From assembly GCA_013150955.1 (NCBI GenBank), contig JAADJD010000012.1:105267-169266 (forward strand): a DNA stretch of 64,000 bases, given 5' to 3'. This document shows positions 44,751 to 63,149 of this stretch, in pieces. The DNA comes from Calditrichota bacterium (GTDB lineage: Bacteria > Calditrichota > Calditrichia > RBG-13-44-9 > J042). The position numbers were made by a program, and so were the translations under genes. Numbering within the stretch: the first letter of the stretch is position 1; each line of letters begins with the position of its first letter. The notes under the pieces were generated by a model. The model ran no database searches and had not been told where the DNA came from. It was given only the letters and a program-made list of their open reading frames with translations.

Positions 44751-45079
44751 AACGGTGTCCTCCTGCTGTTTTTGCTTTCCATCATAACCAATATTCCCGG
44801 TGGAAACAAATGAAAATATGGGCGATTCCGTTGAAAATTTCAATAGCGGCGTTGGATTCGGCAACAGCTCCGCATCGGTTGAAATAATTGAATTCCGCAA
44901 GACCAGTCCCCGTTCGCTGTGGAAAAATTCAACGGTAGCCAATATCGCGGGGCAGGCATCACCCGCTTTCTGAGCCGGATAAGTTCTGTAAAATGAATGA
45001 GTTGTGTATTACCGGCTTTTTTCCGGCATTCTTTTTGACTGTTTTTATAGCGGGAACTAAAAATTTCAAGGAGGGGAAA

Positions 45080-46334: not shown

Positions 46335-46963
46335 ACCACTACCCTTTCCTGTTGTTTTTTAGCCCGTTCGCGCAGCCAGTTAAAAAATAGCAACCAGGCC
46401 CCCAGCACAAAAAAGGCCCCACCGGGCAGGATCATGATGGACCAGGGTTCAAATCCCGGACCAAAAATGGGAATTCCCGCCAGGGTACCGTTGCCCAGCA
46501 GCTCCCGCACCACGCCCAGACTCAGCACCGCAAAGGTAAAGCCGGCGCCCATGCCCAGGGCATCCATAACCGCTTCCTTTACTGGATGTTTGGAGGCAAA
46601 GGCTTCCGCACGCCCCAGAATGATACAGTTCACCACGATCAGGGAGATAAATGCGCCCAGGCTCTTGTGAACCTCCAGACTGACGGCCTGAATGATATAT
46701 TCCGCCACGGTCACAAACGTGGCGATGATCATGATGTAGGATGCAATGCGCACCTGCCGGGGAATCAGCTTCCGAAACAGGGACACAAAAAAGCTGGACA
46801 TCACCAGCACAAAAGTGGTGGCGATTCCCATCACAATGGAATTGATGACCGAATTGGTCACGGCCAGTACGGGACACATCCCCAGTACCTGAACAAATAC
46901 CGGATTCTCCTTCCAGATTCCCTTGAGCAGGATGTCCATGCTGGTGGTTTCTTCCATCTTCAT
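46331..46963 (-). CDS. rnfE: Rnf complex subunit RnfE
   Basis: The 210-residue membrane protein has LLKGIWKENPVFVQVLGMCP and IVVNCIILGRAEAFASKHPV, the RnfE/NqrD signatures, including the two cysteines that, with those of RnfA, coordinate an intramembrane cluster. The C-terminus ends in a basic segment. Start and stop overlap rnfG and rnfA by 4 bp each, indicating translational coupling. Confidence 0.97.
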   Translation of the reverse strand: MKMEETTSMDILLKGIWKENPVFVQVLGMCPVLAVTNSVINSIVMGIATTFVLVMSSFFVSLFRKLIPRQVRIASYIMIIATFVTVAEYIIQAVSLEVHKSLGAFISLIVVNCIILGRAEAFASKHPVKEAVMDALGMGAGFTFAVLSLGVVRELLGNGTLAGIPIFGPGFEPWSIMILPGGAFFVLGAWLLFFNWLRERAKKQQERVVV

Positions 46964-47679
46964 TGCGAAGCTCCCTGTTTCAAAACATCCAGATTGCGTT
47001 GAATGATCGGCAGTATTTCACGACTGCTCTTCAATAAAATATTGGTAATGGCACGGGAAGAAATGGTTGCCCCGGTGATGGCCTCGATTTGCCAATCGGC
47101 GGTTTTCTGCCCTTTTTTTACCATTTCCAGCGGATGCACCAGATCGCTCAAATCTGGCGTGAGCTTTACCACCAGGGCCTTAAAATTGGCGATAAATTCG
47201 GGATCGGTTTCAATTTTGGAACCCAGTCCCGGAGTTTCCTTGCTTTCCAGGACCTTCATGCCTACAATGACCTCCCGCTCGGGATCGTAACCGTAAATAA
47301 TGTGAATCACATCCTGAAAGCCCTGGCCTTTTGCCTCGATGGCCACCCCTACCAGCTTCCCCCGGTCATCGTAACCGGCGTAAATTTTGAATACCCGCTT
47401 TTCCTTTCCCCGCTCGGGGCGCAGGGTGCCATCTTTTTCCACCACAAAGGCCTGCTTCTGGCTGGCATTGGGCAGTACATCGAATATGGCCCGCTGTAAA
47501 AATTCGGCCTTGTTTTGCTCGATGATCGGCAACGTCAGCCGGTAGGTCACCACAATCAACAATCCTGCCAGCAGCCCGATGGTTCCCATGGTCAGGATCA
47601 TCCGAAAACTGCTCACATCGTCGCCGCCTTCACCAGCAGAGGGATGATGATGTCCCGCTCCGTGCATGTGCATGGTCAT
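46960..47679 (-). CDS. rnfG: Rnf complex subunit RnfG (FMN-binding)
   Basis: The 239-residue product has one membrane anchor (TMGTIGLLAGLLIVVTYRLT) and a periplasmic FMN-binding domain with IEAITGATISSRAITNIL, where the Thr of TGAT carries covalent FMN. Unusually, its cytoplasmic N-terminus is His-rich (MHMHGAGHHH) and could bind metal. A 113-bp gap with no recognised feature separates it from rnfD; its stop overlaps rnfE. Confidence 0.95.
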   Translation of the reverse strand: MTMHMHGAGHHHPSAGEGGDDVSSFRMILTMGTIGLLAGLLIVVTYRLTLPIIEQNKAEFLQRAIFDVLPNASQKQAFVVEKDGTLRPERGKEKRVFKIYAGYDDRGKLVGVAIEAKGQGFQDVIHIIYGYDPEREVIVGMKVLESKETPGLGSKIETDPEFIANFKALVVKLTPDLSDLVHPLEMVKKGQKTADWQIEAITGATISSRAITNILLKSSREILPIIQRNLDVLKQGASQ

Positions 47680-47792
47680 TCCAGTAATTTTTTCATTCTG
47701 ATCATGCCGGTCGATTCATCCGACAGGTACCGCTCACCTTCTTTTTACTTGCCGTTCAAACTTTCCCGCATTCGTTTCATCACCCGCGTCTT

Positions 47793-48815
47793 TCAGGATT
47801 CGGACTTTCGCATTCCATAGATTCGGGGTCGAACCACCTTGTTAATCAAGGGCGTTAATGCATTCATCAACAAAATGGAATACATGACTCCCTCCGGAAG
47901 TCCACCCCACACTCGAATCACCACCACCAGCAATCCCACCCCCACACTAAAAATCCACACGCCCTTCTGGGTAATGGGAGAGGTCACGGGATCGGTGGCC
48001 ATGAATACGGCGCCCAGCATCAATCCACCGGCAAACAGGTGAAACCAGGGGGCCGGATATTTCGTCCCATCTACCCAATGCAACAACGTGGCCAGCACAA
48101 ACACGGTGGCCAGAATGCCCACCGGGATTCGCCAGTTGATGACCCCCCGAATGGCCAGGTAAATCCCGGCCAGTAAAATGATCACGGCAGCCGTTTCGCC
48201 CAGCGATCCCGCTGTACTCCCCAGCAGTAAATCGGTGATTCCCGTGGGTTGCATCTCAAATTTCATTTTTGCAAGCGGTGTTGCCGCCGACAACGCATCC
48301 ATCCGGGGTTTCATGAATGGCAGGGTAAGCAGGTCGCCACGAATTTGAAAGAAATTTTCCAGCGAGGCATGGGGCATCCAGGTGGTCATGGAAACCGGAA
48401 ACGCGGCCTGCAGGAAGGCGCGTCCCACCAGGGCGGGATTAAAAATATTATACCCCAATCCCCCAAAAAGAATTTTTCCCAGTACCACCGAAACCACCCC
48501 GCCCAGGAATGCCATCCACAACGGAATGCCGGGTGGCAGCGTCAAAGCAAACAACAAACCGGTAATGACTGCCGAACCGTCCCGAATGGTGTTAACGGGA
48601 TTGTTCTGCTGGCGGCTCCAGATCCATTCGGGCAACAGGGCCCCGGCCAGCGACACCGCGATTAGCAGCACGGCATTGATTCCAAAATAATAAACACTGG
48701 CCAGAATGACTGGCAGCAGCGCATAATTGACCTGCCACATGATGAATCGCGTATCGTGCGGGGATTTAATAAACGGCGAGGTGGTTAACAGAAGTTTCGG
48801 TTCCCGGGTCTTCAT
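47793..48815 (-). CDS. rnfD: Rnf complex subunit RnfD
   Basis: From the ATG at 48815, which overlaps the rnfC stop (ATGA), the product has 340 residues and about nine membrane segments. It begins KTREPKLLLTTSPFIKSPHD, a normal RnfD start, and carries LGSTAGSLGETAAVIILLAG, the region of the flavinylated Thr. An in-frame ATG 37 codons earlier would overlap rnfC heavily and is rejected. RnfD is part of the ion-translocating core. Confidence 0.95.
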   Translation of the reverse strand: MKTREPKLLLTTSPFIKSPHDTRFIMWQVNYALLPVILASVYYFGINAVLLIAVSLAGALLPEWIWSRQQNNPVNTIRDGSAVITGLLFALTLPPGIPLWMAFLGGVVSVVLGKILFGGLGYNIFNPALVGRAFLQAAFPVSMTTWMPHASLENFFQIRGDLLTLPFMKPRMDALSAATPLAKMKFEMQPTGITDLLLGSTAGSLGETAAVIILLAGIYLAIRGVINWRIPVGILATVFVLATLLHWVDGTKYPAPWFHLFAGGLMLGAVFMATDPVTSPITQKGVWIFSVGVGLLVVVIRVWGGLPEGVMYSILLMNALTPLINKVVRPRIYGMRKSES

Positions 48816-50167
48816 GCTTTTGCTGCCTTCTCCCTTGCCATTTTTTCTCTCAGTAGCGCCTTCGCCACCCGAAATCGTTGCACCAGCGGAATATTCGATG
48901 GACAAACGTAGGAACAGGAACCACACTCAATACAATCCATGATGTAGTGTTCCAGCATATCGTCATAGCGGCGCACGCGCGCCAGCATTCCCAGCAGACT
49001 GGGATTTAAATACATGGGACAGGCATCCACACACTTCATGCAATGAATGCAGGGATATTCCTGACGGGGTACGACTTCGTATTCCGTTAAAAACAGTACC
49101 CCGGATGTGCCCTTCAGAATGGGTACCTCCAGCGACCGCTGCGGCATGCCCATCATCGGGCCGCCGAACAGCACCTGGCGCACGTTTTCCTTCATCCCCC
49201 CACAATAGGCGATCACATCGGTCAGGCGGGTACCGATGGGAACCAATAGATTGGCCGGCCGCTGAATGCCCGGCCCGGTCACCGTTACCACGCGCTCAAT
49301 CAGCGGTTGATTGTATTTGAACATCTGGCCAATTGAGGCCACGGTCCCCACGTTGTTGACCACCACCTCCACATCAATGGGCAGGCGTCCGCTGGGCACT
49401 TCCCGGTGCAACACGGCCTCAATCAGCATTTTTTCCGCACCCTGGGGATATTTGGTCTCCAGGGGAATGACCTCACAGGGCAAATCGGAGGGCAGCTGCT
49501 CCCGCAGCAACTCGATGGCGTCCCACTTGTTATCTTCCACCCCGATGAATGCCTTCTCGGAACCCAGGATTTTCAGGATCACCCGAATGCCCAGGAAAAT
49601 ATCCGGGTAGCGCTCCAGCATGATGCGATAATCAGTGGTCAGGAAGGGCTCGCATTCCGCCGCGTTCACAAAGAAGAAACGGGCGTGTTTGCCTTCCGGT
49701 ACGGCGTATTTCACGTGAGTGGGAAAGGCTGCTCCACCCAGCCCCACAAACCCACCCAGGCGGATCATCTCCAGCAACTCTGCCGGGGAAAGCGACTCCC
49801 AGTCGATGGGATGTTCGTTCACCAGGGTCTGGGGAGAATACGGATCGCGTTCAATGACGATGGCTTCCACCATGCGCCCGCCGGGATGTTCCCGGGGCTC
49901 AATGGCTTTTACCACTCCGGTGACCGGTGCATGGAGTGCGGCGGAAACAAAGGCGGCCGGCTCGGCAATCAATTGCCCCCGGTAGACCCGTTCGCCGAGT
50001 TTTACCAGCGGCCGGGAGGGTGCCCCGGCGTGCTGGCTCAGTGGCAAAACGTATTCGTCCACAAACGGCATGCGCTCGATGGACAAATGCCGGGTAAAAT
50101 GCTTATAATCATCGGGATGAATCCCGTGTTTAAAGGTCTTTTTTTCTCTCTGAAGCAACAATTCCAT
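48812..50167 (-). CDS. rnfC: Rnf complex subunit RnfC (NADH-side FeS flavoprotein)
   Basis: The 451-residue product has an N-terminal barrel-sandwich part, a Rossmann/FMN region (FVGLGGAAFPTHVKY, FFVNAAECEPFLTTDYR, the NuoF-like pattern), an SLBB part and two [4Fe-4S] motifs, CIHCMKCVDACPMYLNP and CIECGSCSYVCPSNIP. RnfC exchanges electrons with NAD(H). It is short, ending soon after the clusters, without the long Ala/Lys-rich tail of E. coli RsxC. A 107-bp gap separates it from giant gene A. Confidence 0.96.
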   Translation of the reverse strand: MELLLQREKKTFKHGIHPDDYKHFTRHLSIERMPFVDEYVLPLSQHAGAPSRPLVKLGERVYRGQLIAEPAAFVSAALHAPVTGVVKAIEPREHPGGRMVEAIVIERDPYSPQTLVNEHPIDWESLSPAELLEMIRLGGFVGLGGAAFPTHVKYAVPEGKHARFFFVNAAECEPFLTTDYRIMLERYPDIFLGIRVILKILGSEKAFIGVEDNKWDAIELLREQLPSDLPCEVIPLETKYPQGAEKMLIEAVLHREVPSGRLPIDVEVVVNNVGTVASIGQMFKYNQPLIERVVTVTGPGIQRPANLLVPIGTRLTDVIAYCGGMKENVRQVLFGGPMMGMPQRSLEVPILKGTSGVLFLTEYEVVPRQEYPCIHCMKCVDACPMYLNPSLLGMLARVRRYDDMLEHYIMDCIECGSCSYVCPSNIPLVQRFRVAKALLREKMAREKAAKA

Positions 50168-50274: not shown

Positions 50275-53200
50275 TCACTCATGCGACGGCTCCGATTCCT
50301 TTTTCCCATTCCCACGGGCCCGCTCGGCAAAGGCTTTCAGGGTCTGTTTTAATTTCTCTGCGTTCTGGCCGTACCCGCTCAATTCCAGCAACCGCCGGGT
50401 CAATCGCGCATGATAAATCTGCTCGTGCTGTTGTTCCAGCTCCTGTTTCCGCTGCTGGTACGCTTTCTCCAGCGCCTCCTGTTTTTCCTGCAGCTGGCGC
50501 TCCATTTCGTCCCGCGCCTCCTGCCGAATCCGCTCAACCAGGCTGGAACGCAATCCCGCCAATTCCTGCAGTAAATGCCAGTACCGGAGCCGATCCTCCG
50601 TATCCAGAACGATCGCCGGCCTGACCACCACCCGCAGCAAACGGTCCTTTTCGTCCACCACCTCGATGTAGGGCTCCAGCCCCTCCCGATCTTCCGGCGC
50701 CATGTTCAGGTAATCCACCAGCGGCACCATCTCCCGGTGCCATTCCTTCTGCGGCCGATACTGAAACTGATGGCGGAAACGGGCTTCGTGAACTGCCCAG
50801 TGGGCAAAGGTTACCGGATGGGTGATTTCCTGATAATGTTTTTCCCCGGTTCGCCCCCACTCGCGAACGGTCACCCAGTCCTGTTCCGGTTCGGGATTGG
50901 CGGAAAGATCCAGCCGCGCCTGAAATTCCCCGGGAACCGACGGGTCGTACGTCCACAGGGGAACGGTTCGGGTCTGCACCGCCCGCCGGGCCTGCTCCAG
51001 CACCTTTTCCGGCAACAGACCGTGAGCATGCGGTTCCGGGGTGTAAATCACCGCCAGTGCGGGACCGGAATATTGCAACATCCGCTGCAAATCCCGGAGC
51101 AGGGGTCCCGGATACCCGATGCTGGCCTGCATGACAAACGCCTGCCGGAACGCCAGGGCCATCAAGGCCAGTTCCTGTTTGCGGAATTGGGGCTCCTGCC
51201 ATTGACTGGCGAAACTGCCCGCTCCCGGTTGTCCGCCGGTAGCCACGTATCCCTGGGAATCGAACACCACTATTTTCACCGGAAACTGTCCCTGCAGCAA
51301 TCGAGATAACCCGGCCAGACCGGCTTCACCCAGTGCACCATCGTCACCGACCACCACCAGGGGCGGCACCAGGGCCTTTTCTTCCTCGGTTAACCGATCC
51401 CAGTCCAGAGCAGCCAGTTCACGGTCGTGGGTTTTGGGATCGTAGGTATCGTCCAGTATCCAGCGAGCTTTTCGCAACAGGCGGAAGGTTTCCAGCATTT
51501 TGCGGGTCAATCCGGTCAAAAGGCCTTCGGCCAGAGCCGGAGCCTCTCCATAGCGCTGGTGTACCCAGGGAAAAGGAAAGGGATTGTAAGGATAGATGCC
51601 ACTCCAGAAGGCCACGCTGCCGGAATCCACCGCCATGGCCAGCCGGGCCCGTCCATCGCCGGTGGCGCCTTTTTCGTACACGTCCCGTAATTCTTTTAAA
51701 GCCGTGACCATTCGGGTCAGTTGCTCCAGCCACTTTCGGTCGATGGTGACCGGGGATTCCCCTTCCTCCCGCAGCAACTCCATCAGGGTGTCCAGGTCCA
51801 GCTTGCGGGTCTCCAGCCCACTCAGCTTTCGGGCAAAGGCTTCAAAATCATTGATTTTCAGGGATTGGCTGACCTGCCCCTGGACGCGCGCTTCCAGCTG
51901 TTGAATCATTTCGCGAATGCGCGACAGCAGTTGCTGCAGGTGCGGTTGTAACACGGCTTCGGCCGCCGCAGCGACCAATCGCATCCCGATCTTAATGCCA
52001 CTGGCAGGCGGGGCATTATCCCCCCCAAGCATGGCATGGTACACTTTGCGATTCAACAGGGCGTAAACGTGGGTCTCGGGCGCCTCCTCCCGAATCAGGG
52101 CGTGCAGCCTTTCCAGCGGAACGTCGGGAAGGGCCATCAAGAACTCCCAGTTGCGCCGGTGCATGGCCACATCGCGATCGGTTTGTTCCATCATCTCCAG
52201 CGCCTCTTCCGGACACACCGCCACACAGAGGTTGCAGGATTTGCAGGCATCCGGATTCACCGCAAGGGTAAAAATCAACCCGTTTCCCTTCTGTTCCTGA
52301 TGCACCCGATCGAAGAACGTTTCTGTGCGGACGATGGGGACGTCCTGGATGGCCTGCACAAATCGATCAAAGTCCTGCTCCAGCTCCGTTTTCAACGATT
52401 CGTTGGGTTTCATGATTTCCAGCAATTGCTGAAACGCATCGCGGAACAATTCCCCAAGGGTCAGGTGCTGGTGCAACTCATCCTTCTGGAAGATTCTATA
52501 GGCCAGTTTGGCCAGGTTATCGCCAACGCGTTGTAATTGCATCAATGGGGTACCGCGGGATTCTGCCTGTTGCAGCCCCACACGCACGATGTCTGCCAGC
52601 TGCTGTACGGTTCCCGGCAGGGCACTTTCCGGACACAGAGTCCAGCACAGGCCACAGGCGGTGCAGTTTTCGGGAATCAGGCGGGGCAATTTTTTGCGGG
52701 AAGGGCTGAAGTCCCGAAAAGCGCTGCTGCGGGCCGGCATGGCTCCCGTGGCCAGGGCCGGTGTGATTAACGTTTGCGCCGGACGGCGGGTTTCGTAAAA
52801 ATACCCCACCGTTTCCCAGAAATGGGTCAGGTCAAAAATGGACTGATCGAATTGCCGGGTCTCGCGGACAGTCCATGGCGCAGGCGGTTCCCCGATGCGC
52901 ACCTCTTCCACCGGCGGCAGGGTAGACCAATCCAGCGGGCTCACCTGCTCCATGCCCTTTTGCAGCGCCTGAAAGGCTTCCTGCACCAGAGAGGGGCTAC
53001 TTTCCAGCTGCTCTTCCAGTCCCTTCCGGTAAGCGTCCAGCAGCCGGGAAACTTCTGAGGCGTCCCAGGACGGACAAACCTTTAACATCGCTCCCATCAG
53101 GGCATGGTTTATCAGCGGCGATTCAAAATGGGAATCCGAACCCACCTGGCGGGCAATTTGACGGGCATTGAGCACAAACAGGCGCAGCTCCCGTTGCTGA

Positions 53201-55008
53201 ATTTCCCGGCGAATCCGATCCGGTAGCTGAAACCAGACTTCCGGCGCCGCATCTTCCCAGTTGAGGATCAGAATGCCACCGCGCACCGGTGTCCCCAGCT
53301 GCTCCAGCGAACTTAAAATGGCCACATCCTGCACCACCAGCGCCTGTAACCCGGTGGATTGCTGTCGGGCCTCGGAATCGTTCAGGAAGCGTTCCAGCCG
53401 GTAATCCGTATAGGGTAACGCCTGATGCAGATGGTATTCCGGGATCGTCCGCAGCGCCCAATTTAGCACGTGATAAAGCGAACGGGCCAGAATATTTCCC
53501 GCCATCGTTCCCCCGGTTCCAGACACCGCCAGAAAGCGAAACGTTTGCCGCGGCAGTAGCGTGGCTCCGGTTGTATCCCCCCGCTTCGGGAGCAACCCCA
53601 GCTGATCGCGCCGGGGGTAGTCCCGATCCAGCCGCTGCTGCACCTGTTCCAGAATGGGAAATCGCACCTCTTCCTGCCGAAAAGCCACTCCCAGGTAGAA
53701 TAGCTGGCGAGATTCGCCAGTGGGGAGCATGTTTTCCACAGCGGCCTGAAGTTCCTCCGGTGAAGGGTTGCCACCACCGATCCCGTAAATGGCAGAAAAG
53801 AAACGGGGACGATCGGAGAGTTTTTCGTAAACGGCGTATTCGGGATATGGCAGTGGGCCGTTTCCCCGGGCACCATTTTCCAGGGCCCGATCCACTGCCG
53901 CCCGAATGTCCCGCAACAGGGGCGGGTCTTCCGCAAGCGCGGGATCCACCCGCTCGAACACGGTAACCGCCTTTTTGCCTTTTAACAAATGGGAGATGTG
54001 TTCCCCCGGAAAGGGGCGAAACATGGTGATATTCAGCACACCCACCTTCAATTTGCGCTGTTTGCGCAGCGCATCGGCCAGCATTTCCAGGTCTTCCACC
54101 AGAGAACCCTGCGCCACCAGGACGTAATCGGCATCGTCCAACCGATAGGCCTGAACCCGCTGGTAGTGCCGACCGGTAAGCTGCGCAAATTCCTGGAACA
54201 CCTGATCGGCCAGCGGTGCCACGTGCTGCCAGAAATACGGCCTTCGGGCTGCAACGGCCCGGAAGAAGCTTTCCCGATCCTGAACCGTTCCCAGTCCCAG
54301 CGGGCGATCCAGATCAAACCATTCGGGAATCCGGCGCCGTTTCTCGCCAAAAATCTGTTTCTGGGCGGGGGTGGGACATTCAATTTGGTCGGAAGGATCC
54401 CCCAAAAATCGGGCGATGAGTTCCGGTTCCGGCATGCGCAGGGGTTGCACGGAATGGCTGGTCAGGTAGCTGTCCTGTGCGACCAATCCCGGATTCAGTG
54501 CCAGTTCGGCCAGCCGATGGGCAATCAAGGCAAAATCGGCGGCTTCCTGCACGTTTTTGGCAAACAGCTGGAAGAGCCCGGATTCGGAGAGAGCGTGATA
54601 GTCCGCGTGGCCTGGCAACAATGAGTCTGCCTGCTCTCCCGGCGCTCGACTGGTCAGGTGAATCACAAAAGAAAGCCGCTTGCCCACGGCGGCATCCAGG
54701 GAGGCGCGCATTTCGGCCGGCCCGGTGCCACTGGTAAAGGCCACCGAACGCAAACCCACCAGCGCCGTTCCCACGGTGATTCCGGAAAGAATCCGGCTGT
54801 CGGCAGTGGATCTAAAGACCAGCACCCGCGGCGAGTCTGCCACCGAGCGCCGGTGCTGCCCCAGCCTGGCCGTATTGGGAATGGCATGAACCTGCATGGC
54901 CTCAGCGGCCGCTTCTTCCACTTTCCATACCGCCCGATGACCATCCAGTGCATCCGGGATGCCTGGAAACGGCGGTTGATGTTCCGAGGTTTTCTTTTTA
55001 AACCACAC
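50275..55008 (-). CDS. Giant degenerate PFOR-like iron-sulfur protein (A)
   Basis: The likely start is GTG at 55008, giving 1577 residues and an 11-bp overlap with rnfB; an ATG at 55092 would overlap rnfB by 95 bp. The order follows pyruvate:ferredoxin oxidoreductase (NifJ, about 1170 residues). Domain I-like sequence has HLTSRA and GHADYHALSESGLFQLFAKN (residues 115-165). Domain II-like sequence has LNITMFRPFPGEHI (about 325). A gamma-like Rossmann part has FLAVSGTGGTMAGNI (about 492-505). Two [4Fe-4S] motifs follow at Cys782-792 and Cys922-932, about 130 residues apart. A TPP-domain-like part has VVVGDDGALGEAG and VATGGQPGAGSF (about 1218-1265). A coiled-coil tail is added. The catalytic Asn before TGGQ in NifJ is Ala here. 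Pyruvate oxidation is therefore doubtful; electron transfer between KorAB/ferredoxin and Rnf is inferred. Confidence 0.75.
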   Translation of the reverse strand: MWFKKKTSEHQPPFPGIPDALDGHRAVWKVEEAAAEAMQVHAIPNTARLGQHRRSVADSPRVLVFRSTADSRILSGITVGTALVGLRSVAFTSGTGPAEMRASLDAAVGKRLSFVIHLTSRAPGEQADSLLPGHADYHALSESGLFQLFAKNVQEAADFALIAHRLAELALNPGLVAQDSYLTSHSVQPLRMPEPELIARFLGDPSDQIECPTPAQKQIFGEKRRRIPEWFDLDRPLGLGTVQDRESFFRAVAARRPYFWQHVAPLADQVFQEFAQLTGRHYQRVQAYRLDDADYVLVAQGSLVEDLEMLADALRKQRKLKVGVLNITMFRPFPGEHISHLLKGKKAVTVFERVDPALAEDPPLLRDIRAAVDRALENGARGNGPLPYPEYAVYEKLSDRPRFFSAIYGIGGGNPSPEELQAAVENMLPTGESRQLFYLGVAFRQEEVRFPILEQVQQRLDRDYPRRDQLGLLPKRGDTTGATLLPRQTFRFLAVSGTGGTMAGNILARSLYHVLNWALRTIPEYHLHQALPYTDYRLERFLNDSEARQQSTGLQALVVQDVAILSSLEQLGTPVRGGILILNWEDAAPEVWFQLPDRIRREIQQRELRLFVLNARQIARQVGSDSHFESPLINHALMGAMLKVCPSWDASEVSRLLDAYRKGLEEQLESSPSLVQEAFQALQKGMEQVSPLDWSTLPPVEEVRIGEPPAPWTVRETRQFDQSIFDLTHFWETVGYFYETRRPAQTLITPALATGAMPARSSAFRDFSPSRKKLPRLIPENCTACGLCWTLCPESALPGTVQQLADIVRVGLQQAESRGTPLMQLQRVGDNLAKLAYRIFQKDELHQHLTLGELFRDAFQQLLEIMKPNESLKTELEQDFDRFVQAIQDVPIVRTETFFDRVHQEQKGNGLIFTLAVNPDACKSCNLCVAVCPEEALEMMEQTDRDVAMHRRNWEFLMALPDVPLERLHALIREEAPETHVYALLNRKVYHAMLGGDNAPPASGIKIGMRLVAAAAEAVLQPHLQQLLSRIREMIQQLEARVQGQVSQSLKINDFEAFARKLSGLETRKLDLDTLMELLREEGESPVTIDRKWLEQLTRMVTALKELRDVYEKGATGDGRARLAMAVDSGSVAFWSGIYPYNPFPFPWVHQRYGEAPALAEGLLTGLTRKMLETFRLLRKARWILDDTYDPKTHDRELAALDWDRLTEEEKALVPPLVVVGDDGALGEAGLAGLSRLLQGQFPVKIVVFDSQGYVATGGQPGAGSFASQWQEPQFRKQELALMALAFRQAFVMQASIGYPGPLLRDLQRMLQYSGPALAVIYTPEPHAHGLLPEKVLEQARRAVQTRTVPLWTYDPSVPGEFQARLDLSANPEPEQDWVTVREWGRTGEKHYQEITHPVTFAHWAVHEARFRHQFQYRPQKEWHREMVPLVDYLNMAPEDREGLEPYIEVVDEKDRLLRVVVRPAIVLDTEDRLRYWHLLQELAGLRSSLVERIRQEARDEMERQLQEKQEALEKAYQQRKQELEQQHEQIYHARLTRRLLELSGYGQNAEKLKQTLKAFAERARGNGKKESEPSHE

Positions 55009-55864
55009 GGCTCGTCTTCGCTTCCTGTTTTTCCGTTTTCCATTGCTGGAACCATTCCGGAAACTGCTGACCATCCACCCAGGTGATGGCACCGGTGGGG
55101 CATCGCAGCGTTGCCAGTTCGGTTTCCAGATTCAATTTATCCTGTTGCACAATGGGGAGATTGTTTTTCATGAGGATCAGGCCTTCGGGCGCATCGGCGG
55201 CGCAGATGCCGCATCCGGTGCAGGCCACCTCGCAAACCGCCAGCGCTTCGTCACCGGCCAGCAGCGATTTGCACTGAACGATCAGGTGTTGCGAAATGGG
55301 GTACAGCTCCAGAATGCCCTTCGGACAGGCACGGACACAATCGCCACAGCCGGTGCACTTTTCCACGTCAATCATGGGCAGGCCATTGGGCGCCATGAAC
55401 ATGGCATCGAAGGTGCAGGATTCCACACAATCACCCAGCCCCAGACATCCGTACACACATCCTTTAAATCCACCGGTCACGGCGGCGGCTGCCCGGCAGG
55501 AGGGATACCCATCGTATTCGGCAATTTGCGGGGCCACATCCCGACTGCCCGCACAGAGCAGGCGGGCCACTTTTTTAACGGTTTGACCGGCATCCACTCC
55601 CAGATATTCCGCCACAATGCGCGCCGTTTCCGGACCACCAACGGGACACTGACCGGGCAACACCTTTCCCGCCACCACATTTTCGGCAAAGGCGCGGCAT
55701 CCCGGAAAACCGCAGGCACCGCAATTGGCGCCGGGCAGCATCTCCTCCACCCGGCCAATCCGGGGGTCTTCCTGAACCTTCAACTTGCTATTGGCAATGG
55801 CCAGAGAAATGGCCAGAAATACGCTCAACGCCGCAATGAATCCAATGGCCGTGGCCACATCCAT
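54998..55864 (-). CDS. rnfB: Rnf complex subunit RnfB (polyferredoxin)
   Basis: The 288-residue product has an N-terminal membrane helix (IGFIAALSVFLAISLAIANS), the RnfB four-Cys domain ANCGACGFPGCRAFAENVV with CPVGG, and several further Cys clusters including EKCTGCGDCVRACPKGILEL and CEVACTGCGICAADAPEG, in which the last Cys is shifted. RnfB receives electrons from reduced ferredoxin and passes them to the Rnf core. Instead of lying next to rnfA, it sits between the two giant PFOR-like genes. Confidence 0.96.
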   Translation of the reverse strand: MDVATAIGFIAALSVFLAISLAIANSKLKVQEDPRIGRVEEMLPGANCGACGFPGCRAFAENVVAGKVLPGQCPVGGPETARIVAEYLGVDAGQTVKKVARLLCAGSRDVAPQIAEYDGYPSCRAAAAVTGGFKGCVYGCLGLGDCVESCTFDAMFMAPNGLPMIDVEKCTGCGDCVRACPKGILELYPISQHLIVQCKSLLAGDEALAVCEVACTGCGICAADAPEGLILMKNNLPIVQQDKLNLETELATLRCPTGAITWVDGQQFPEWFQQWKTEKQEAKTSRVV

Positions 55865-55876
55865 CCCTGATTGCTC

Positions 55877-58800
55877 CTATAAATAGGGTTCCGCCCGTTT
55901 CAATAATTCATCCAGTCCCGGCTCGTCTGGATTCTTTGGCTTTCCGGGATGAATGATGTGCACCGGGCATTTTTCTGCAGCCAGTACCAATTCGCGATAG
56001 GTACCGGCCGTGGGGTCTTTGATGTACGCCTGCTTATTGTCGTTGTACGCAAACAGCTGATTGTTGATGTTGATACATTCCCCACAGCTGGTGCAGCGGG
56101 GCGTTTCGATATATGGCTCATCAAAACTTAATTCTTCCTCTTCTTCCTCTTCGGGGGGTGCCTCGGTCACTTCTGCGGATTCCGTCGGCGGGGCCGATTC
56201 GGTTTCCGGCGGTGGCGCCGGTGCGGTACTGGACGGCATGCCCACCGGAGCAGCCGGCATGGTGGCCTGGCCCAGCAATCCCGCCGCAATGTTGGACACG
56301 ATATCCCGCGCCACTTCTCCCAGCGTTTTCTCCAGCTCCGCCTGGTAGCGCTGTTCAATGGCCTGAATTTCGGATTCCATTTCCTGTCGCAAACGGGCCT
56401 GCTCGGCTTCCAGCAAGCGCCGGGCATGGGAGTTGTGAATGCCACCCAGCTCCTGTAGCAGGTGCCAATCCGCCAGAAGCGTTCGAGCCGCTTCGACCAG
56501 CTTCCGGGTTACCACCACCCGTTGCAATCGATTCGCCTCGTCGATCATCAAAATAAAGGGAATCTTGTGTTCCCGCTCGCTGTCTGTCAGCCGTTCATAC
56601 TCCTCCAGAGGCACAAAGCGGTCGTCCTGCACCTCGGGTGGAAGCAACAGAAAATGATGATCGAAAAGCACATGGGTGCTCAGCAGATCAATAACCGTAA
56701 AGGGCAGTTCCTGTTGCACTTCTTCGCCCGCTGCTCCCGTAAAGGTAATGGTGTTTCGGGGCCAATCCTTTTCGGGATCGGGATTGCCGTTGAGGGAAAA
56801 ACATTCCGCCCAGGTGGTTCCGGCACCCGGATGGTAGGTAAATGCCGGAAAGGCACGGGCCTCCTGGGCTGCCGCTGCAATTAGATACGGCGAAAGGGCG
56901 GGGTAAAAATCCGGTGCCCCCACAAACACACTCCACAGCGCCGGGCCGGGGTAAGCCAATCCCTGTTGAAGCGCCGTCTGCAACACCTCCACATTGGCCA
57001 GACTGGCCTGGCAGACAAAGGGGCGATTGAGTCCCAGCGCCATCCGCGCCATGCGGCCCACCCAGCCGGAAAGACAGGGGGTTTCCCGCGGGGACGCCGG
57101 CCCCTCGCACACATCGCGCAATTCCAGCATGATTTTAATGGGAAATTCGCTGGACAGCATTTCCAGCACCATCTCCCGATTGAGTTCGTTTTGCAGATCG
57201 GCCCTCAGGTAAATAAGCAACGGGGGCAGCAAAGCGCGCTCTGCATCGGTCAAATATTCCAGCCGAAATCGACGGAAGAAGGGATCGTGCTTTTCTTCCT
57301 GATACCGATTCTCCACTTCCAGCCGGGCCACATGCACCGCCCGGAAAAAATCCACCATGGAATGCATGCGGGCCTCATATTCTCCCAGTGCCCGTGCCAG
57401 ATTTTCCACCGTATCCGGCATCAGGATGGGAGCAAAACTGCCATTTTCGCTCCAGCCTTCGCCCACCGGTGTTTCTGCGGATTCCATCGGCAACGGCTCC
57501 GGATGAAACAGCGAGCGATGTTTTTTCAGGACGGCAATGGTCTCCCGAATCCGATTTCGACGGGCTTCCGGTAAGGGCTCTCCCTCTATGGCGGTGGATT
57601 CCAGAATATCGGACAGGCGGTTAAAATCCAGATCTTCCTGAAATGCCGTTCCCACCGAAGCCTTCAGTTTTTCGGGTTCCAGCGCCTCCCGGCGCTTCTG
57701 CGCATCGCTCCTCAAAATGTCCGTCAGGCGAGCAATCAATCCTTCCAGTTCATCTGCAAAAGGGCCCATTCGGAACCGCCGATGTACGTTCCAGGCATGG
57801 CGATAGAGTTGCAGGGCCGTTGACGGCTCGCATCCCAGAACCCGCCCGTTCACTTTCAGTGCCCGACGGGCGGTCATCCAGTTTTGCAACAGGGTTTCCT
57901 TCCGTTCCGGGGATATGACCGTCTCCTGCAGGATGGACTCTACCGCCATTTCCCACAATTGCGAAAGGGTCGCACGCGTTCCCCGCTCCACCAGGCGCTT
58001 CATTTCCTTTTCCAGGCGCAGAACGTCCCGGCGGAATTGCTCCCCGGCTTCCCCATCGGGAGCCGCCTGCTCGATGACCGCATCGATGATTTGCTGCAGA
58101 GGTTGCACCATCCGATCAGGATCATCCACCAAACAAATCGGGAAATGGTACCGAATGGAAAGCAAATCCCGAAACGGATGCAACAGTGCCGGAATGAATC
58201 GGCTGGTGCGGAAGGTCTTCACCACGCCTTTCAGAGGCGTTCCGGTTAAATGAAAGGCCAGATAGTCCTGAAATTGCTGCGGTTCCAGTTTTTGCGCTAC
58301 ATCGGCATGGTCTGCAGAGGCTTCCTGAATGCGCAGGCCTTCGGCCGATAATTCTGGCGGTTCGGCAAATTGTTCCAGCGTTTCCACATCTGCCGCCTGC
58401 ACCTTCTCCCAGCCAAATTTCACCGCCGCGGCTTGCTCCTCCGGGCAACGGGACAGGAAGTCCTGCCACTGCGCCTCGGTCACCCGCATCCACTTTTCCG
58501 AATCTTCCTGAACCACCTTTAAGAACGCGCCCAGAAAAACCGCGGACACCCAGCGTTCGTCTGCGGCCACCCCATGCTCCCGCGCCGCCTGCAGGGCGTC
58601 CACCAGGTACAACCGGCAATGTTTATCCCGCAAACGCTGGCGCGCGGCAGAAGGAATCGCCATCCAGATGCGTTCCGCCTCCACTGGATTTCCCTGCAAA
58701 ATGAGAAAACCACCCTCTTTTAAGGCTGCCACATCCTCCGCCAGCTGGAAGAGCAACCACTCCGGGGAAAGCACCCCATCCACTTCCGCCGCTGGCAGGG

Positions 58801-60259
58801 ATTCCGGGAGCGCCCGTGGGGCCAGAAAAATCCGCGTGCGATGGGAAAAAGCGGATGTTTGAATCCCGTACGTACCGTTCAAAATCCTGCGAAGTGCTTC
58901 GGTAAACTGGCGACTCTGCCAGAGTCCCGCCTCAGACCGGTACATCAGGGTGAAAGGTGCAGCCTTCCGGGAAGCTTCCGGGGTCTGATCTTTCCCGGAG
59001 GTTTTCCGGGAAACCCCGGGTAAATGAATCGTCACCGCCGGCGATCCCTTTTTCAAGAGCCGCTCCAGTTCCTGCTCCATGGCTTCGGCATTCAACCGGG
59101 GCCCCTGCTGGTGCATCACCACCATTCGAGGCCGATCCTTGACCTGGGTATATGGCGGATAAAGGGCCAGCTCTGCCGGCACCGCGTTGCCCTTGCACAG
59201 GCCGCGCTCAAAGGCCTTTTCAAAACTGAATTGCAACGATCGGGCAAAAAATTCAGGTCGTGAACGTTCGGAGGGGAGTAACAGAACGACCTGCTTCTTC
59301 CCTTTCAACAGCCGCGCCAGCAGGTGTCCCGGAAAAGGATGAATCAAATGCAACCGAATCAGTCCGATGGAGCGCTTCGTCTTGCTGGCAATTGCATCGG
59401 CAACCGGCCGAATGGCGGCAAAATCTTCTCCGGTGGTGATGATGACCGTGTCGGCTTCCTCCACCCCGATCGCCTGAACCAGATCATAATCCCGACCGGT
59501 GAGTTCACGATAAGCCGTAAGAATGGTTTGTAATTGCTCAAAAAAATCCACCGTGTCATCCACCGGAACCGTCAGTTCGGAAAAATCGAAATATTCCGGT
59601 ATTCGCCGGCGGGTATCGCCAAAAATGTTCTTCTGCCAGTCCACGGGACAGGGAATTTCATCTCCCGGCTCTCCCAGAAACCGGTGCAGCGCTGAGGGAG
59701 CCAGGGCCTGAATGGGCTTCAGGGTTGTGTGGGGCCCTCCGTGCGGGAAAATAACCACCCCAGGCAACAACATCTGTTCCGCCAGTTTACGGGAAATAAT
59801 CGCCAGATCGACCGCCTGCTGCACATCCGCAGCTACCCACTGGAAGAACGGCGCACGCGCCACGGGAACGGGATGTTCCGCCACCCAGTGAATAACAAAA
59901 GGCTGGCGCAGGTACCCCTGAATTTCCGGTAAACGGTCACCCGTGCCCACAAACGCAACGCGTTTACCCAGCCGGGCCTGACCGGCCAGCTCTTCTCCCG
60001 TGGAAAACACACCGCGAGTGACGAAGGTTGATACGGGGTGATCCTTTTGCGCAGGATTCGGCCCGGATTGCAGCCGGTTCCATAGCCAGAGCAGAAAAGA
60101 AGAAGGCTCGTCCTTTCGGATCCCGACCATTTCCGCTGACTGAACCGCCAGTTCCAGTGCAGCGGTCAGAGAATCCCAGGCCACTTCCACCGGCTGAACA
60201 TACGAATCGGATGTTTTCGATGCTGCAGATCGAACATTGGATTTATTCGTCGTTTTCAT
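55877..60259 (-). CDS. Giant degenerate PFOR-like protein (B), thiamine site lost
   Basis: From the ATG at 60259 (GGTGGAG ribosome site) the product has 1460 residues and overlaps korB by 17 bp. It is a paralogue of giant A: shared stretches are FLGEPGDEIPCPVDWQKNIF (FLGDPSDQIECP in A), HPFPGHLLARLLKGKKQVVL, SLNGNPDPEKDW and WHLLQELGGIHNSHARRLLE. In the thiamine region (PPLLIYLRADLQNELNREMV) the GDG motif is gone, and the TGGQ motif is missing. The two internal ferredoxin motifs of A are absent. A Pro/Glu-rich linker (about residues 1320-1380) leads to one C-terminal Fer-like motif, Cys1389-x2-Cys1392-x2-Cys1395 and Cys1431-Pro. It looks like a non-catalytic partner of A with one electron-transfer cluster. 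Confidence 0.75.
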   Translation of the reverse strand: MKTTNKSNVRSAASKTSDSYVQPVEVAWDSLTAALELAVQSAEMVGIRKDEPSSFLLWLWNRLQSGPNPAQKDHPVSTFVTRGVFSTGEELAGQARLGKRVAFVGTGDRLPEIQGYLRQPFVIHWVAEHPVPVARAPFFQWVAADVQQAVDLAIISRKLAEQMLLPGVVIFPHGGPHTTLKPIQALAPSALHRFLGEPGDEIPCPVDWQKNIFGDTRRRIPEYFDFSELTVPVDDTVDFFEQLQTILTAYRELTGRDYDLVQAIGVEEADTVIITTGEDFAAIRPVADAIASKTKRSIGLIRLHLIHPFPGHLLARLLKGKKQVVLLLPSERSRPEFFARSLQFSFEKAFERGLCKGNAVPAELALYPPYTQVKDRPRMVVMHQQGPRLNAEAMEQELERLLKKGSPAVTIHLPGVSRKTSGKDQTPEASRKAAPFTLMYRSEAGLWQSRQFTEALRRILNGTYGIQTSAFSHRTRIFLAPRALPESLPAAEVDGVLSPEWLLFQLAEDVAALKEGGFLILQGNPVEAERIWMAIPSAARQRLRDKHCRLYLVDALQAAREHGVAADERWVSAVFLGAFLKVVQEDSEKWMRVTEAQWQDFLSRCPEEQAAAVKFGWEKVQAADVETLEQFAEPPELSAEGLRIQEASADHADVAQKLEPQQFQDYLAFHLTGTPLKGVVKTFRTSRFIPALLHPFRDLLSIRYHFPICLVDDPDRMVQPLQQIIDAVIEQAAPDGEAGEQFRRDVLRLEKEMKRLVERGTRATLSQLWEMAVESILQETVISPERKETLLQNWMTARRALKVNGRVLGCEPSTALQLYRHAWNVHRRFRMGPFADELEGLIARLTDILRSDAQKRREALEPEKLKASVGTAFQEDLDFNRLSDILESTAIEGEPLPEARRNRIRETIAVLKKHRSLFHPEPLPMESAETPVGEGWSENGSFAPILMPDTVENLARALGEYEARMHSMVDFFRAVHVARLEVENRYQEEKHDPFFRRFRLEYLTDAERALLPPLLIYLRADLQNELNREMVLEMLSSEFPIKIMLELRDVCEGPASPRETPCLSGWVGRMARMALGLNRPFVCQASLANVEVLQTALQQGLAYPGPALWSVFVGAPDFYPALSPYLIAAAAQEARAFPAFTYHPGAGTTWAECFSLNGNPDPEKDWPRNTITFTGAAGEEVQQELPFTVIDLLSTHVLFDHHFLLLPPEVQDDRFVPLEEYERLTDSEREHKIPFILMIDEANRLQRVVVTRKLVEAARTLLADWHLLQELGGIHNSHARRLLEAEQARLRQEMESEIQAIEQRYQAELEKTLGEVARDIVSNIAAGLLGQATMPAAPVGMPSSTAPAPPPETESAPPTESAEVTEAPPEEEEEEELSFDEPYIETPRCTSCGECININNQLFAYNDNKQAYIKDPTAGTYRELVLAAEKCPVHIIHPGKPKNPDEPGLDELLKRAEPYL

Positions 60260-61235
60260 TATGATTGTCTCCACCCACAGGATTTACGGCAAATTTATCA
60301 AATTCTCTTTCCAGAACCGCTTTGCGCATCTCCAGCGTGGTGACCCGCCGGGGGCGACGAATTTCGTCATACACGTCCACATTTTCGTTGCGGTACAAAA
60401 TTCCCACCACGGCCTTGCTTTCATCGGAGGCAATTTCCCGCGCCCGATGAATGTCCGAAGGATCGTGCTCAATCTGATTCTTGTAAATCCTGGCCAGACT
60501 GTCATCCAGTTGAAGGCCATTCTCGTGAGTCAGAATGAGGATGTTGTTGGGATCGTTGATAAACGGATCGAAGATATCTGGTAGATAAGTGGGACAGCGT
60601 TGTAAAATCCGCACGAACGAAAAACCGTGATGATGAAAGGCCTGCCGGATAACCTCATACAGTAAATCCGGAATCCACTCCACCGCCTGGGCCACAAACG
60701 ATACGTTGGTTACACCCAGCGTCACGGTAAGCGGATTAAGGCCTTCAATATAGGAACCGTAAGGGGTGGTGTTTGTCTTCAGCCCTTTGGGAGATGTGGG
60801 AGAAACCTGCTTCTTGGTCAACCCATAAATCCGATTGTCGTGCACCATGGCCACCATATTCATATTGTAATGAATGGCATGAATCCAGTGGGCGCTTCCA
60901 ATGCTGAAACAGTCGCCATCTCCCATGTTTACAAAAACGTGCAGATCGGGACGCCGAATTTTAATGCCCTGAGCAATGGGCAGCGCCCGACCGTGCACCC
61001 CGTGAAATCCATAGGCATTCATGTAATGCGGAAAACGGCTGGAACATCCGATTCCGGACACAAACACCGCTTTTTCGGGTGGGATGCCTTCATCCCGCAA
61101 CAATCGCTGAACCGCCGTTAGAATGGCATTGTCCCCGCAACCGGAACACCAGCGAGGCATTCCCCCCTGGTAATCCTCCAGCCGACGATATTCCTCTTCA
61201 ACATCCAGCAAACGTTCAAGGTCTAATCCGAACAT
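60243..61235 (-). CDS. korB: 2-oxoacid:ferredoxin oxidoreductase, beta subunit
   Basis: The ATG at 61235 fits the GGAAGG ribosome site better than the GTG at 61244. The 330-residue product has the thiamine-binding subunit motifs intact: MPRWCSGCGDNAILTAVQRL, SGIGCSSRFPHYMN, NMGDGDCFSIGSAHWIHAI and DNRIYGLTKKQVSPTSPKG. It is the 2-oxoglutarate-type (KorB) length without its own ferredoxin domain, and works with KorA to oxidise a 2-oxoacid to an acyl-CoA while reducing ferredoxin. Pyruvate or branched-chain 2-oxoacids cannot be excluded. Confidence 0.96.
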   Translation of the reverse strand: MFGLDLERLLDVEEEYRRLEDYQGGMPRWCSGCGDNAILTAVQRLLRDEGIPPEKAVFVSGIGCSSRFPHYMNAYGFHGVHGRALPIAQGIKIRRPDLHVFVNMGDGDCFSIGSAHWIHAIHYNMNMVAMVHDNRIYGLTKKQVSPTSPKGLKTNTTPYGSYIEGLNPLTVTLGVTNVSFVAQAVEWIPDLLYEVIRQAFHHHGFSFVRILQRCPTYLPDIFDPFINDPNNILILTHENGLQLDDSLARIYKNQIEHDPSDIHRAREIASDESKAVVGILYRNENVDVYDEIRRPRRVTTLEMRKAVLEREFDKFAVNPVGGDNHNENDE

Positions 61236-61250
61236 GCGTGTCACCTTCCT

Positions 61251-63149
61251 TTATTTGATTTCTTTTAATTTTTCCAGAATGACCTGTTCGATTTCACCCG
61301 GCTTGTAGGGTCTGCCGTATACCCGCGACCAGCTATCCACATCGATGAGGAACCGGGCACGCAACAGCCAGGCCAGATTCGAATAGCGCCGATTGTTTTC
61401 ATCGATCAATTCTTCGCCGGGATCATCGGAGTAATTGATCTCGATGCACAGCACCTTTTTGAATCGTTGCAGAATTTCCTTGATCCCAGACGCCATGGGT
61501 TGCAGGAACTTGATGTTCAGCGCAGAAACCCGGTAGCCTTTCTCCCGGACCCGGGTGACTGCCTCTTCGATGGCGCCCTTGGTGCTTCCCCAGCCAACGA
61601 TCAGCAGATCGCCTTCGGGATCGCCAAACACTTTGGGTGGCTTAAGCGTTTTCTGAAACGCGGCCAGCTTCATGCTGCGGCTGCGGGCTCCTTCCTGATT
61701 GATCCAGGGCTCATACGCCACCTTCCCTTCGCGATCATGGGCCAATCCGGTGAGCGAGTACATCCCATTCGGCTGGCCGGGAATGATCCGCCGGGATAAT
61801 CCCGTTTTGGGGTCCCAATCGTACGGTTTGGTACCCGGGGGAACGGGGCTCTGGTCGATCGGTGGAGCCACCCAATCCCGGGAAAAGCGCGGCCGCGGAA
61901 ACGGCTGCTGACCGGTGGCCAGATTGGCATCGGATAAAACAATAACCGGCAGGCGGAAGGTTTCGGCAATCTTGCGAGCGGTGATCACCGAATAAAAACA
62001 ATCTTCGATGGTGGAACAGGCCATCACCACTTTGGGGGCATCGCCATGGGTACTGAACAGGGCCGCCAGCAAATCTCCCTGTTCCACTTTGGTGGGGAGT
62101 CCGGTGCTGGGACCACCACGCTGCACGTTGATTACCACCAGCGGCACCTCAATCATGGACGCCAATCCGATAATTTCGGTTTTTAACGACATGCCTGGAC
62201 CGGAAGTAATGGTCACCGCACACTTACCGGCGTAGGAGGCGCCCACGGCAAATCCGATGGCCGCAATTTCATCTTCCGCCTGATGCACAATACCACCCAC
62301 ATGCTCGAAAATCTCGCTTAAATAATGGGAAGCGGAAGTGGCTGGCGTGATAGGGTACATGGCGCATACTTCCATGCCCGAGGCAATGATTCCCAGTGCC
62401 AGCGCGACATTGCCATTCATCACCACCTGAGGCTCGGTAATCCCCGCCGATGGAATGCGGAACTTAAAATCCAGATGTTCCTCTGCCCAGGCATAACCGG
62501 CGTTGAACAACTTCAAATTCAGGTCGGCGACCTTCTCGCCTTTCTTGATCCACAGTTCGTATACTTCCTTTCGGGCCAGCTCCAGATCCCGCTCGTAAAG
62601 ATTACACAACATGCCCAGGACAAACATATTCTTCCCCCGTCGGGGACTGATGGTGTATTTCAAACACTCCTCTTCCATGGGCACTTCGATAACTTTGTAG
62701 CCTTCAGAAACCAGGCGATCGTAGGTTTTGGTGTAAGCTTCGCGAATGGCGGGATCTTTGTGGGTTCGCCACATGTTTTCCAGCAAGATAATGGCGCCTG
62801 GTTTTAAATTACCGGTATCCACTCGCCCCAGAAGCACCTGTTCATTAAACGCCACGATCAGATCGGCATCGTCGCCCACATTGGTTATGTAAAAAGACCC
62901 CAGACGGATGCGGATACCGCTGGCCCCGGTAATGGTTCGGGGTGGGGGTTGAATTTCGGCCGGAATGATCTCCACCGTCCAGATACCGTTTCCCATTTTC
63001 GCGGAAATGGCACCGAACGTCTGACCGGCTTTTTGAGCCCCTTCTCCGGAATCGCTGACGATTTCCACAATATGTTCGGGGAGTTCGATGATTTTTTTCT
63101 CTTTCACGACCGGATGGGGTTCATGCTGAGTTGGGGTTGCTTCTGCCAT
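61251..63149 (-). CDS. korA: 2-oxoacid:ferredoxin oxidoreductase, fused gamma-alpha subunit
   Basis: The 632-residue product fuses a gamma domain (about residues 30-200; DSGEGAQKAGQTFGAISAKM) with an alpha domain: VCAMYPITPATSASHYLSEI, HQAEDEIAAIGFAVGASYAG, TITSGPGMSLKTEIIGLASM and QRGGPSTGLPTKVEQGDLLA. These hold the usual substrate and thiamine contacts. It is the first gene of the cluster, six bases ahead of the GTG of korB. An AAGGTACC region precedes its ATG; the promoter should lie in 63150-63300. Confidence 0.96.
   Translation of the reverse strand: MAEATPTQHEPHPVVKEKKIIELPEHIVEIVSDSGEGAQKAGQTFGAISAKMGNGIWTVEIIPAEIQPPPRTITGASGIRIRLGSFYITNVGDDADLIVAFNEQVLLGRVDTGNLKPGAIILLENMWRTHKDPAIREAYTKTYDRLVSEGYKVIEVPMEEECLKYTISPRRGKNMFVLGMLCNLYERDLELARKEVYELWIKKGEKVADLNLKLFNAGYAWAEEHLDFKFRIPSAGITEPQVVMNGNVALALGIIASGMEVCAMYPITPATSASHYLSEIFEHVGGIVHQAEDEIAAIGFAVGASYAGKCAVTITSGPGMSLKTEIIGLASMIEVPLVVINVQRGGPSTGLPTKVEQGDLLAALFSTHGDAPKVVMACSTIEDCFYSVITARKIAETFRLPVIVLSDANLATGQQPFPRPRFSRDWVAPPIDQSPVPPGTKPYDWDPKTGLSRRIIPGQPNGMYSLTGLAHDREGKVAYEPWINQEGARSRSMKLAAFQKTLKPPKVFGDPEGDLLIVGWGSTKGAIEEAVTRVREKGYRVSALNIKFLQPMASGIKEILQRFKKVLCIEINYSDDPGEELIDENNRRYSNLAWLLRARFLIDVDSWSRVYGRPYKPGEIEQVILEKLKEIK

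Follow-up and report, generated by a model that had tools for sequence, protein, structure and literature searches.

The 64,000-nucleotide stretch of DNA analysed here (contig JAADJD010000012.1 of assembly GCA_013150955.1, positions 105,267 to 169,266; hereafter the window) comes from a Calditrichota genome and carries ten genes on its minus strand in the order korA-korB-GiantB-rnfB-GiantA-rnfC-D-G-E-A, several of which overlap or are separated by only a few bases. The kor genes encode a 2-oxoacid:ferredoxin oxidoreductase (KorAB), the rnf genes encode the ion pump Rnf, and GiantA and GiantB are two very large proteins related to pyruvate:ferredoxin oxidoreductase (PFOR). We propose that the cluster probably encodes one membrane-associated, ion-pumping 2-oxoacid:NAD+ oxidoreductase, in which electrons would pass from KorAB, by way of a pseudo-PFOR scaffold with a swinging ferredoxin, to Rnf. 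The proposal builds on the gene order, the homology of the proteins, the loss of catalytic residues from the giants, the tether that carries the ferredoxin, and the co-variation of these features with KorAB.

Judged from its sequence, the cluster is real, conserved and functionally coherent, and represents an Rnf with a putatively dedicated 2-oxoacid oxidoreductase. A genus mate of the window organism (G001) has the identical ten genes in the identical order. Because this order recurs in a sister genome and purifying selection acts on the giants, the cluster is not a product of chance or of assembly, and chance clustering is also ruled out by the conservation of the order across many phyla. 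The original prediction, made from this DNA alone, had described ten minus-strand genes that combine korAB and all six rnf genes with two paralogous reading frames of about 1577 and 1460 codons in PFOR domain order. Coordinates and gene families were confirmed, but the range it gave (50275–63149) contains five of the genes, while five rnf genes (45753–50167) lie outside it. The frame lengths were correct (GiantA, 1577 amino acids; GiantB, 1460 amino acids from its ATG), and the paralogy is visible over both the N-terminal and the C-terminal parts (34% over GiantA residues 139–439 and 29% over residues 1164–1521). In GiantA, both Pfam and the fold confirm the PFOR domain order; in GiantB, Pfam shows it only in part, and profile-profile comparison together with the fold makes it clear for the C-terminal half.

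Two Giants on the PFOR Plan Have Lost Catalytic Residues

GiantA shows the Pfam order POR_N, PFOR_II, POR, two Fer4 domains with an insert, and a TPP_enzyme_C-like region, ending in a coiled C-terminus, and it can be aligned to solved PFORs over most of its length. In GiantB, Pfam finds only PFOR fragments (PFOR_II and POR) and then a terminal Fer4_13, and its C-terminal half aligned to giant columns 740–1549 in a profile-profile comparison (expectation value E = 6e-67). Structure models covered GiantA residues 1–1010 and GiantB residues 600–1465. The GiantA model, with a moderate predicted local distance difference test score (pLDDT 76), matched the Desulfovibrio africanus PFOR (1b0p) over 774 residues with a Z-score of 36.4, and the GiantB model (pLDDT 73, also moderate) matched residues 694–1170 of the Moorella PFOR with a Z-score of 17.4 over 276 aligned residues. 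The giants have the domain order I-II-III-V-VI and the fold in common with single-chain PFORs (D. africanus 1b0p/7plm, Moorella 6cin). They differ from them in size (1460–1660 amino acids), in an insert of ~130 residues between the clusters, which is also present in the parent form described below, and in added C-terminal parts.

Are the giants still enzymes? We scored eight PFOR residues in D. africanus numbering (T31, E64, R114, C812, C815, C840, D963 and N996), taken from the alignment to a solved PFOR and from family alignments. In GiantA, the corresponding residues are P, S, R, P, S, S, D and A; that is, R114 and D963 are kept, while T31, E64, N996 and the proximal-cluster cysteines C812, C815 and C840 are replaced. 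The E64 column can be read as Asp in an alternative alignment, but the glutamate is lost either way. GiantB retains none of the set, with E, V, E, A and G at T31, E64, R114, D963 and N996 and gaps at the three cysteines. The dicluster (domain V) cysteines are complete in GiantA (CCCC/CCCC) and were invariant in 19 of 19 giants, a loss in lineage L159 being found later; both cluster motifs are missing from GiantB. Compared with single-chain PFOR, the window pair is thus without most thiamine-site residues and without the proximal cluster, and GiantB has, in addition, lost the dicluster and acquired a ferredoxin domain.

It is highly improbable that the giants are ordinary active enzymes, of the PFOR or the indolepyruvate type, that merely cluster with rnf. 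Such a reading could draw on the nearest NCBIfam model, which is the PFOR equivalog TIGR02176, and on the parent-type giants, which have every PFOR catalytic residue tested. However, T31, E64, N996 and the proximal-cluster cysteines are gone from both window giants, and against the TIGR02176 cut-off of 911 bits GiantA scored 203 and GiantB 52.5; even an intact parent giant (L030) reached 429. We rejected the active-enzyme candidate on these lost residues and low scores.

The giants are not pseudogenes either, a candidate ruled out by their long open frames, a ratio of nonsynonymous to synonymous substitution rates (dN/dS) of 0.17, and orthologues that occur in 13 genomes of Calditrichota as well as in bacteria outside the phylum. 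Between the window and G001, dN/dS was 0.168 and 0.169 for the two giants and 0.021–0.051 for the kor and rnf genes, these values being rough as dS is high. The higher ratios of the giants fit the expectation for non-catalytic scaffolds.

KorAB and a Complete Rnf

KorA scored 519 bits against the NCBIfam model TIGR03710 (cut-off 483), and KorB scored 237 bits against TIGR02177, which is below its cut-off of 262. The nearest solved structure to KorA is the Magnetococcus 2-oxoglutarate:ferredoxin oxidoreductase (6n2n_A, E = 5e-81), and KorB aligned to 6n2n_B (E = 4e-51). KorA retains YPITPAT, the Glu of AEDEIA and QRGGPSTGLPT, and KorB retains the thiamine diphosphate (ThDP) motif (GDGD...DNRIYGLTK) and the four cluster cysteines (WCSGC, GIGCSS, QRCPT). 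From these intact motifs, KorAB is probably the sole catalytic thiamine enzyme of the cluster; that its nearest solved relative is a 2-oxoglutarate enzyme does not settle its substrate specificity. The Magnetococcus and window enzymes are alike in subunit architecture, ThDP motifs and cluster ligands, but the former stands alone with a soluble ferredoxin, whereas the latter is encoded together with an apparently dedicated giant scaffold and with Rnf. At a related locus (L158:12170-19000, genome G143), two successive korAB pairs lie upstream of GiantB and rnfB, an arrangement which suggests that a single scaffold may serve two 2-oxoacid substrates.

The Rnf core is complete by Pfam and NCBIfam, with all six genes (rnfABCDGE), the Fe-S input domains of RnfB (TIGR01944, 96.7 bits, above the cut-off) and the NAD/flavin mononucleotide (FMN) domains of RnfC. 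Known Rnf complexes take their electrons from soluble ferredoxin (PMC12174285). The window has their six subunits in the order B-C-D-G-E-A, with standard RnfB and RnfC domains, but GiantA is inserted between B and C, and a 2-oxoacid oxidoreductase and a tethered ferredoxin are encoded within the operon itself.

A Ferredoxin Tethered to GiantB

The C-terminal ferredoxin of GiantB was missed in the original prediction. The tail matches Fer4_13 with 32 bits (cut-off 24.5), has the ligand set CxxCxxC...C, and matches D. africanus ferredoxin I (1dax) with E = 8e-4. Both are single-[4Fe-4S] ferredoxins, but D. africanus ferredoxin I, which is the natural partner of PFOR in that organism, is soluble, whereas the ferredoxin of GiantB is covalently tethered to a pseudo-PFOR. 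Residues 1328–1393 are predicted to be disordered (model residues 729–762 and 764–794, pLDDT <50).

The four cysteines of the tail are invariant in 14 of 14 GiantBs. The tail is also the best-conserved part of the protein, being 66–89% identical to its relatives, compared with only 22–66% for residues 640–1320. Since the tail is far better conserved than the body, the ferredoxin appears to be what is held, while the body drifts within its fold.

An Intact Parent Form Is Widespread in rnf Operons

A search of genome contigs with patterns of the giants recovered 80 loci, all of the parent type or close to it. They come from Gammaproteobacteria, Betaproteobacteria, Bacteroidota, Gemmatimonadota, Acidobacteriota, Planctomycetota, Myxococcota, Verrucomicrobiota and Hydrogenedentota, among others. 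Two rows from the plasmid collection (Persicobacter and Gemmatirosa) were left out of the analysis. In the parent type, one giant of ~1650 amino acids carries all eight PFOR residues tested, both dicluster motifs and a ferredoxin tail, and it is encoded between rnfB and rnfC or, in Bacteroidota, first in the operon. On the homology set out above, GiantA and GiantB are decayed paralogues of this intact giant, which is widespread in rnf operons elsewhere.

Furthermore, rnfC adjoins the giant in 87 of the 89 testable loci, defined as those with at least 1.5 kb of contig beyond the giant; only L077 and L167 depart from this. The search does not itself create this proportion, because its patterns were derived from the giants and not from rnf. 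According to the original prediction, the module hypothesis would fail if homologues of the giants usually occurred without rnf or kor genes; this is not the pattern that we observed. The GiantB profile was matched by 14 of 40 Calditrichota genomes, 13 of them with GiantB itself, and by 33 of 385 relatives, with GiantB proper in at least 10 genomes outside Calditrichota. Both cluster types, the parent type and the KorAB/GiantA/GiantB type, are present in G008, G020, G021, G022, G023, G031 and G035.

In the locus of the Solemya velum gill symbiont (L066), rnfB is split into two frames (~9337–9901) and the tail is out of frame with the giant body (~14665), either through sequencing error or through decay.

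Decay of the Giants Co-Varies with korAB

In INTERMEDIATES loci (from Gemmatimonadota, two Planctomycetota, one Lysobacterales and one Myxococcales), korA-korB lies upstream of rnfB and the giant is intact, except in L092, in which N996 is changed to Ala. Between korB and rnfB, these loci carry a gene of 330–520 amino acids that profile comparison identifies as a remnant of giant domain VI (match to GiantB, 97% probability, E = 1e-11; to the giants, 95%, E = 6e-8). Wherever this korAB directly precedes rnfB, a GiantB-like gene is found between korB and rnfB, reduced in the extreme to a domain-VI remnant of 340 amino acids. At L170, the giant is catalytically intact and has no tail, and a 513-amino-acid GiantB-like protein after korAB carries the tail; at L165, the giant is decayed and its tail is still present. 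In L165, L168 and L170, korA-korB-GiantB is located after rnfA rather than before rnfB, which suggests that korAB-GiantB moves as a cassette.

We classified 106 giants, of which 74 were intact without korAB on the contig, 17 were intact with korAB, 12 were decayed with korAB, and 3 were decayed without a visible korAB. In these last three (L023, L039 and L166), the contig ends on the side where korAB is expected. The parent-type giant of G022 was scored as having korAB because the type-1 cluster of that genome is on the same contig. The association between decay and korAB has a Fisher p value of 6e-6, which ignores shared descent. In the giant tree (where L031 is a GiantB and is to be ignored), at least two separate catalytic losses are seen, one in the A clade of the window and one in L092/L166.

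The tail was counted in the 100 giants whose 3' end is on the contig: in 84 only the giant is tailed, in 12 only a GiantB is, in 2 both are, and in 2 neither is. The two "neither" cases are L039, with its contig cut upstream, and L066, with its tail in another frame; apart from this cut and this frameshift, giants without a tail always have a tailed GiantB. These counts indicate that the tethered ferredoxin is never demonstrably absent from these loci.

Could the giants lie outside the electron path, as structural or regulatory pseudoenzymes, with KorAB linked to Rnf by an ordinary soluble ferredoxin? Catalysis is lost throughout the GiantA clade, and in L159 the clusters are lost as well; the giants also evolve fast. 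On the other hand, the invariant tail cysteines of all GiantBs, the conservation of the tail above any other part, and the presence of a tail on one of the two proteins in every case are hard to explain without electron carriage, and we consider this alternative improbable.

Gene Layout and Neighborhood

The coordinates are collected in Table 1. GiantB can start at an ATG (60259; 1460 amino acids) or at a GTG (60274; 1465 amino acids), GiantA and rnfB overlap by 11 nt, and the contig, which is 169,266 bases long, ends ~850 bases upstream of korA.

Table 1. Features of the kor-giant-rnf cluster, in window coordinates.
Feature	Position	Strand	Basis
korA, gamma-alpha fused 2-oxoacid:ferredoxin oxidoreductase alpha subunit, 632 aa	61251..63149	-	NCBIfam TIGR03710
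korB, beta subunit, 333 aa	60243..61244	-	Pfam TPP_enzyme_C; 6n2n_B
GiantB, decayed PFOR paralogue with C-terminal tethered ferredoxin	55877..60274	-	Pfam PFOR_II, POR, Fer4_13
GiantB Pro/Glu-rich flexible linker, residues about 1328-1385	56120..56293	-	pLDDT <50
GiantB single-[4Fe-4S] ferredoxin domain, residues 1386-1465	55880..56119	-	Fer4_13; Cys 1394, 1397, 1400, 1436
rnfB, ferredoxin-side input subunit of Rnf, 288 aa	54998..55864	-	Pfam FeS/Fer4; TIGR01944
GiantA, PFOR-layout pseudoenzyme, 1577 aa, GTG start	50275..55008	-	Pfam order; fold; residue losses
GiantA dicluster region: CTACGLCWTLCP (782-793), CKSCNLCVAVCP (922-933), ~130-residue insert between	52201..52665	-	
rnfC, NAD(H)-side subunit	48812..50167	-	RnfC_N, Complex1_51K, SLBB; TIGR01945 523 bits
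rnfD	47793..48815	-	TIGR01946 334 bits
rnfG	46960..47679	-	TIGR01947 95.9 bits, slightly below cut-off 102
rnfE	46331..46963	-	TIGR01948 235 bits
rnfA	45753..46334	-	TIGR01943 243 bits

An enoyl-CoA hydratase/isomerase family gene is located ~0.8 kb downstream of rnfA (43968–44942, minus strand). In G001, the region upstream of korA (L021:156-1865) contains apparent genes for a 2-oxoacid dehydrogenase E2-like acyltransferase and a lipoyl synthase, named by eye from the sequence. Elsewhere in the window, a 663-amino-acid protein with almost no family match (807–2798, minus strand) is encoded beside a SusD-like/TonB receptor pair (2913–7714).

Discussion

From these data, we infer a physical complex, an electron path, its direction and its substrate as follows. 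KorAB would convert a 2-oxoacid and coenzyme A (CoA) to acyl-CoA and CO2, and the electrons would be gathered on the [4Fe-4S] cluster of KorAB. GiantA and GiantB, which would derive from a PFOR dimer with a C-terminal ferredoxin and have lost catalysis, would form an asymmetric pseudo-PFOR scaffold by which KorAB is kept close to RnfB. The GiantB ferredoxin, on its linker of ~60 residues, would swing between KorAB (perhaps via the GiantA dicluster) and the input clusters of RnfB, and would take the place of soluble ferredoxin. RnfCDGEA would then pass the electrons to NAD+ and export Na+ or H+; run in reverse, the ion gradient would drive reductive carboxylation. More broadly, we hold it an evenly balanced possibility that there is a widespread class of Rnf with its own covalently tethered-ferredoxin 2-oxoacid oxidoreductase as input, one branch of which was duplicated, became catalytically dead and was kept as a scaffold in two parts through which KorAB is plugged into the pump, giving an ion-pumping 2-oxoacid:NAD+ oxidoreductase that needs no soluble ferredoxin.

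The same complex might, however, run in the reverse direction physiologically, with NADH and the ion gradient pushing low-potential electrons via Rnf, and on through the tethered ferredoxin, to either KorAB or the intact giant for the reductive carboxylation of acyl-CoA. This is a less probable, though still credible, alternative. Many parent-type hosts are autotrophs or sulfur or iron oxidisers (Thiocapsa, Allochromatium, Gallionellales and the Solemya symbiont), and Rnf operates backwards in Azotobacter (PMC12174285). A closed path would also shield low-potential electrons in an oxygen-respiring cell, and the host has three COX1-family oxidase genes. On the other hand, the window organism has a 2-oxoglutarate dehydrogenase, heterotrophic Bacteroidota and Gemmatimonadota are also numerous among the parent-type hosts, and no sequence feature fixes the direction.

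Several observations weigh against the proposed path from KorAB through the giants to Rnf. L077 and L167 have intact giants and no rnf gene on the stretch examined, and in L167 korAB is directly upstream of the giant; a use of the giant independent of rnf is possible. In L159 (L159:7086-11744, genome G279), GiantA lacks both dicluster cysteine motifs while GiantB retains its ferredoxin tail, so the dicluster cannot be essential as a wire, and this lineage is a natural test of the need for it. The 17 intact giants with korAB on the contig imply that korAB alone does not cause decay, the support for the A clade is only 69 on domain VI, and several decayed giants are long-branched. Finally, with a 2-oxoglutarate dehydrogenase, a canonical PFOR and other POR-type genes in the host genome, the module is not the sole route. 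These genes, the COX1-family oxidases and the single copy of rnfC indicate that the host probably respires and uses the cluster as its only Rnf. The original prediction of a 2-oxoacid-to-Rnf module coupled by the giants is well supported by their conserved place beside rnfC, but the giants are not docking proteins of an unknown type, and the gating of electron flow that it suggested is unsupported.

In the cultivated Caldithrix abyssi, rnfBCDGEA are consecutively numbered and no giant is listed (PMC5317091). For the Solemya velum symbiont, Dmytrenko et al. (2014, PMC4287430) reported one or more PFOR genes between rnfB2 and rnfC2 and suggested that this Rnf is fed by pyruvate. This locus is of the same type as the parent form, but the account given of it there is one sentence of inference, and the passages found make no mention of the ferredoxin tail, KorAB or the duplicated dead giants. 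For a PFOR-Rnf or KorAB-Rnf supercomplex, the Solemya sentence was all that we found in the open-access literature, most subscription journals and preprints lying outside the search, and a 2025 RNF/NQR review has no occurrence of PFOR, oxoglutarate or supercomplex. As far as this search reached, the tethered ferredoxin, the KorAB takeover and the dead GiantA/GiantB pair had no description. The novelty claimed in the original prediction therefore stands, within the same limits, for the version with KorAB, GiantA and GiantB, but not for a PFOR between rnfB and rnfC, which had been noted in 2014.

What would such a complex mean for its hosts? In the current view, Rnf is a pump that draws on a pool of free ferredoxin, mostly in anaerobes, and in the pyruvate and 2-oxoglutarate dehydrogenases the redox drop from 2-oxoacid to NAD+ is not coupled to ion pumping. 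If our proposal is true, a tethered input dedicated to Rnf would allow even bacteria that respire oxygen to conserve this large redox drop; alternatively, they would spend the ion gradient on reductive carboxylation while keeping low-potential electrons away from oxygen. Such a bioenergetic complex would be spread over many phyla, and it is testable because cultivable hosts (Thiocapsa, Allochromatium, Algoriphagus and Persicobacter) are among the carriers. The takeover by KorAB would represent a traceable conversion of an enzyme to a scaffold, with the redox function split between the duplicates.

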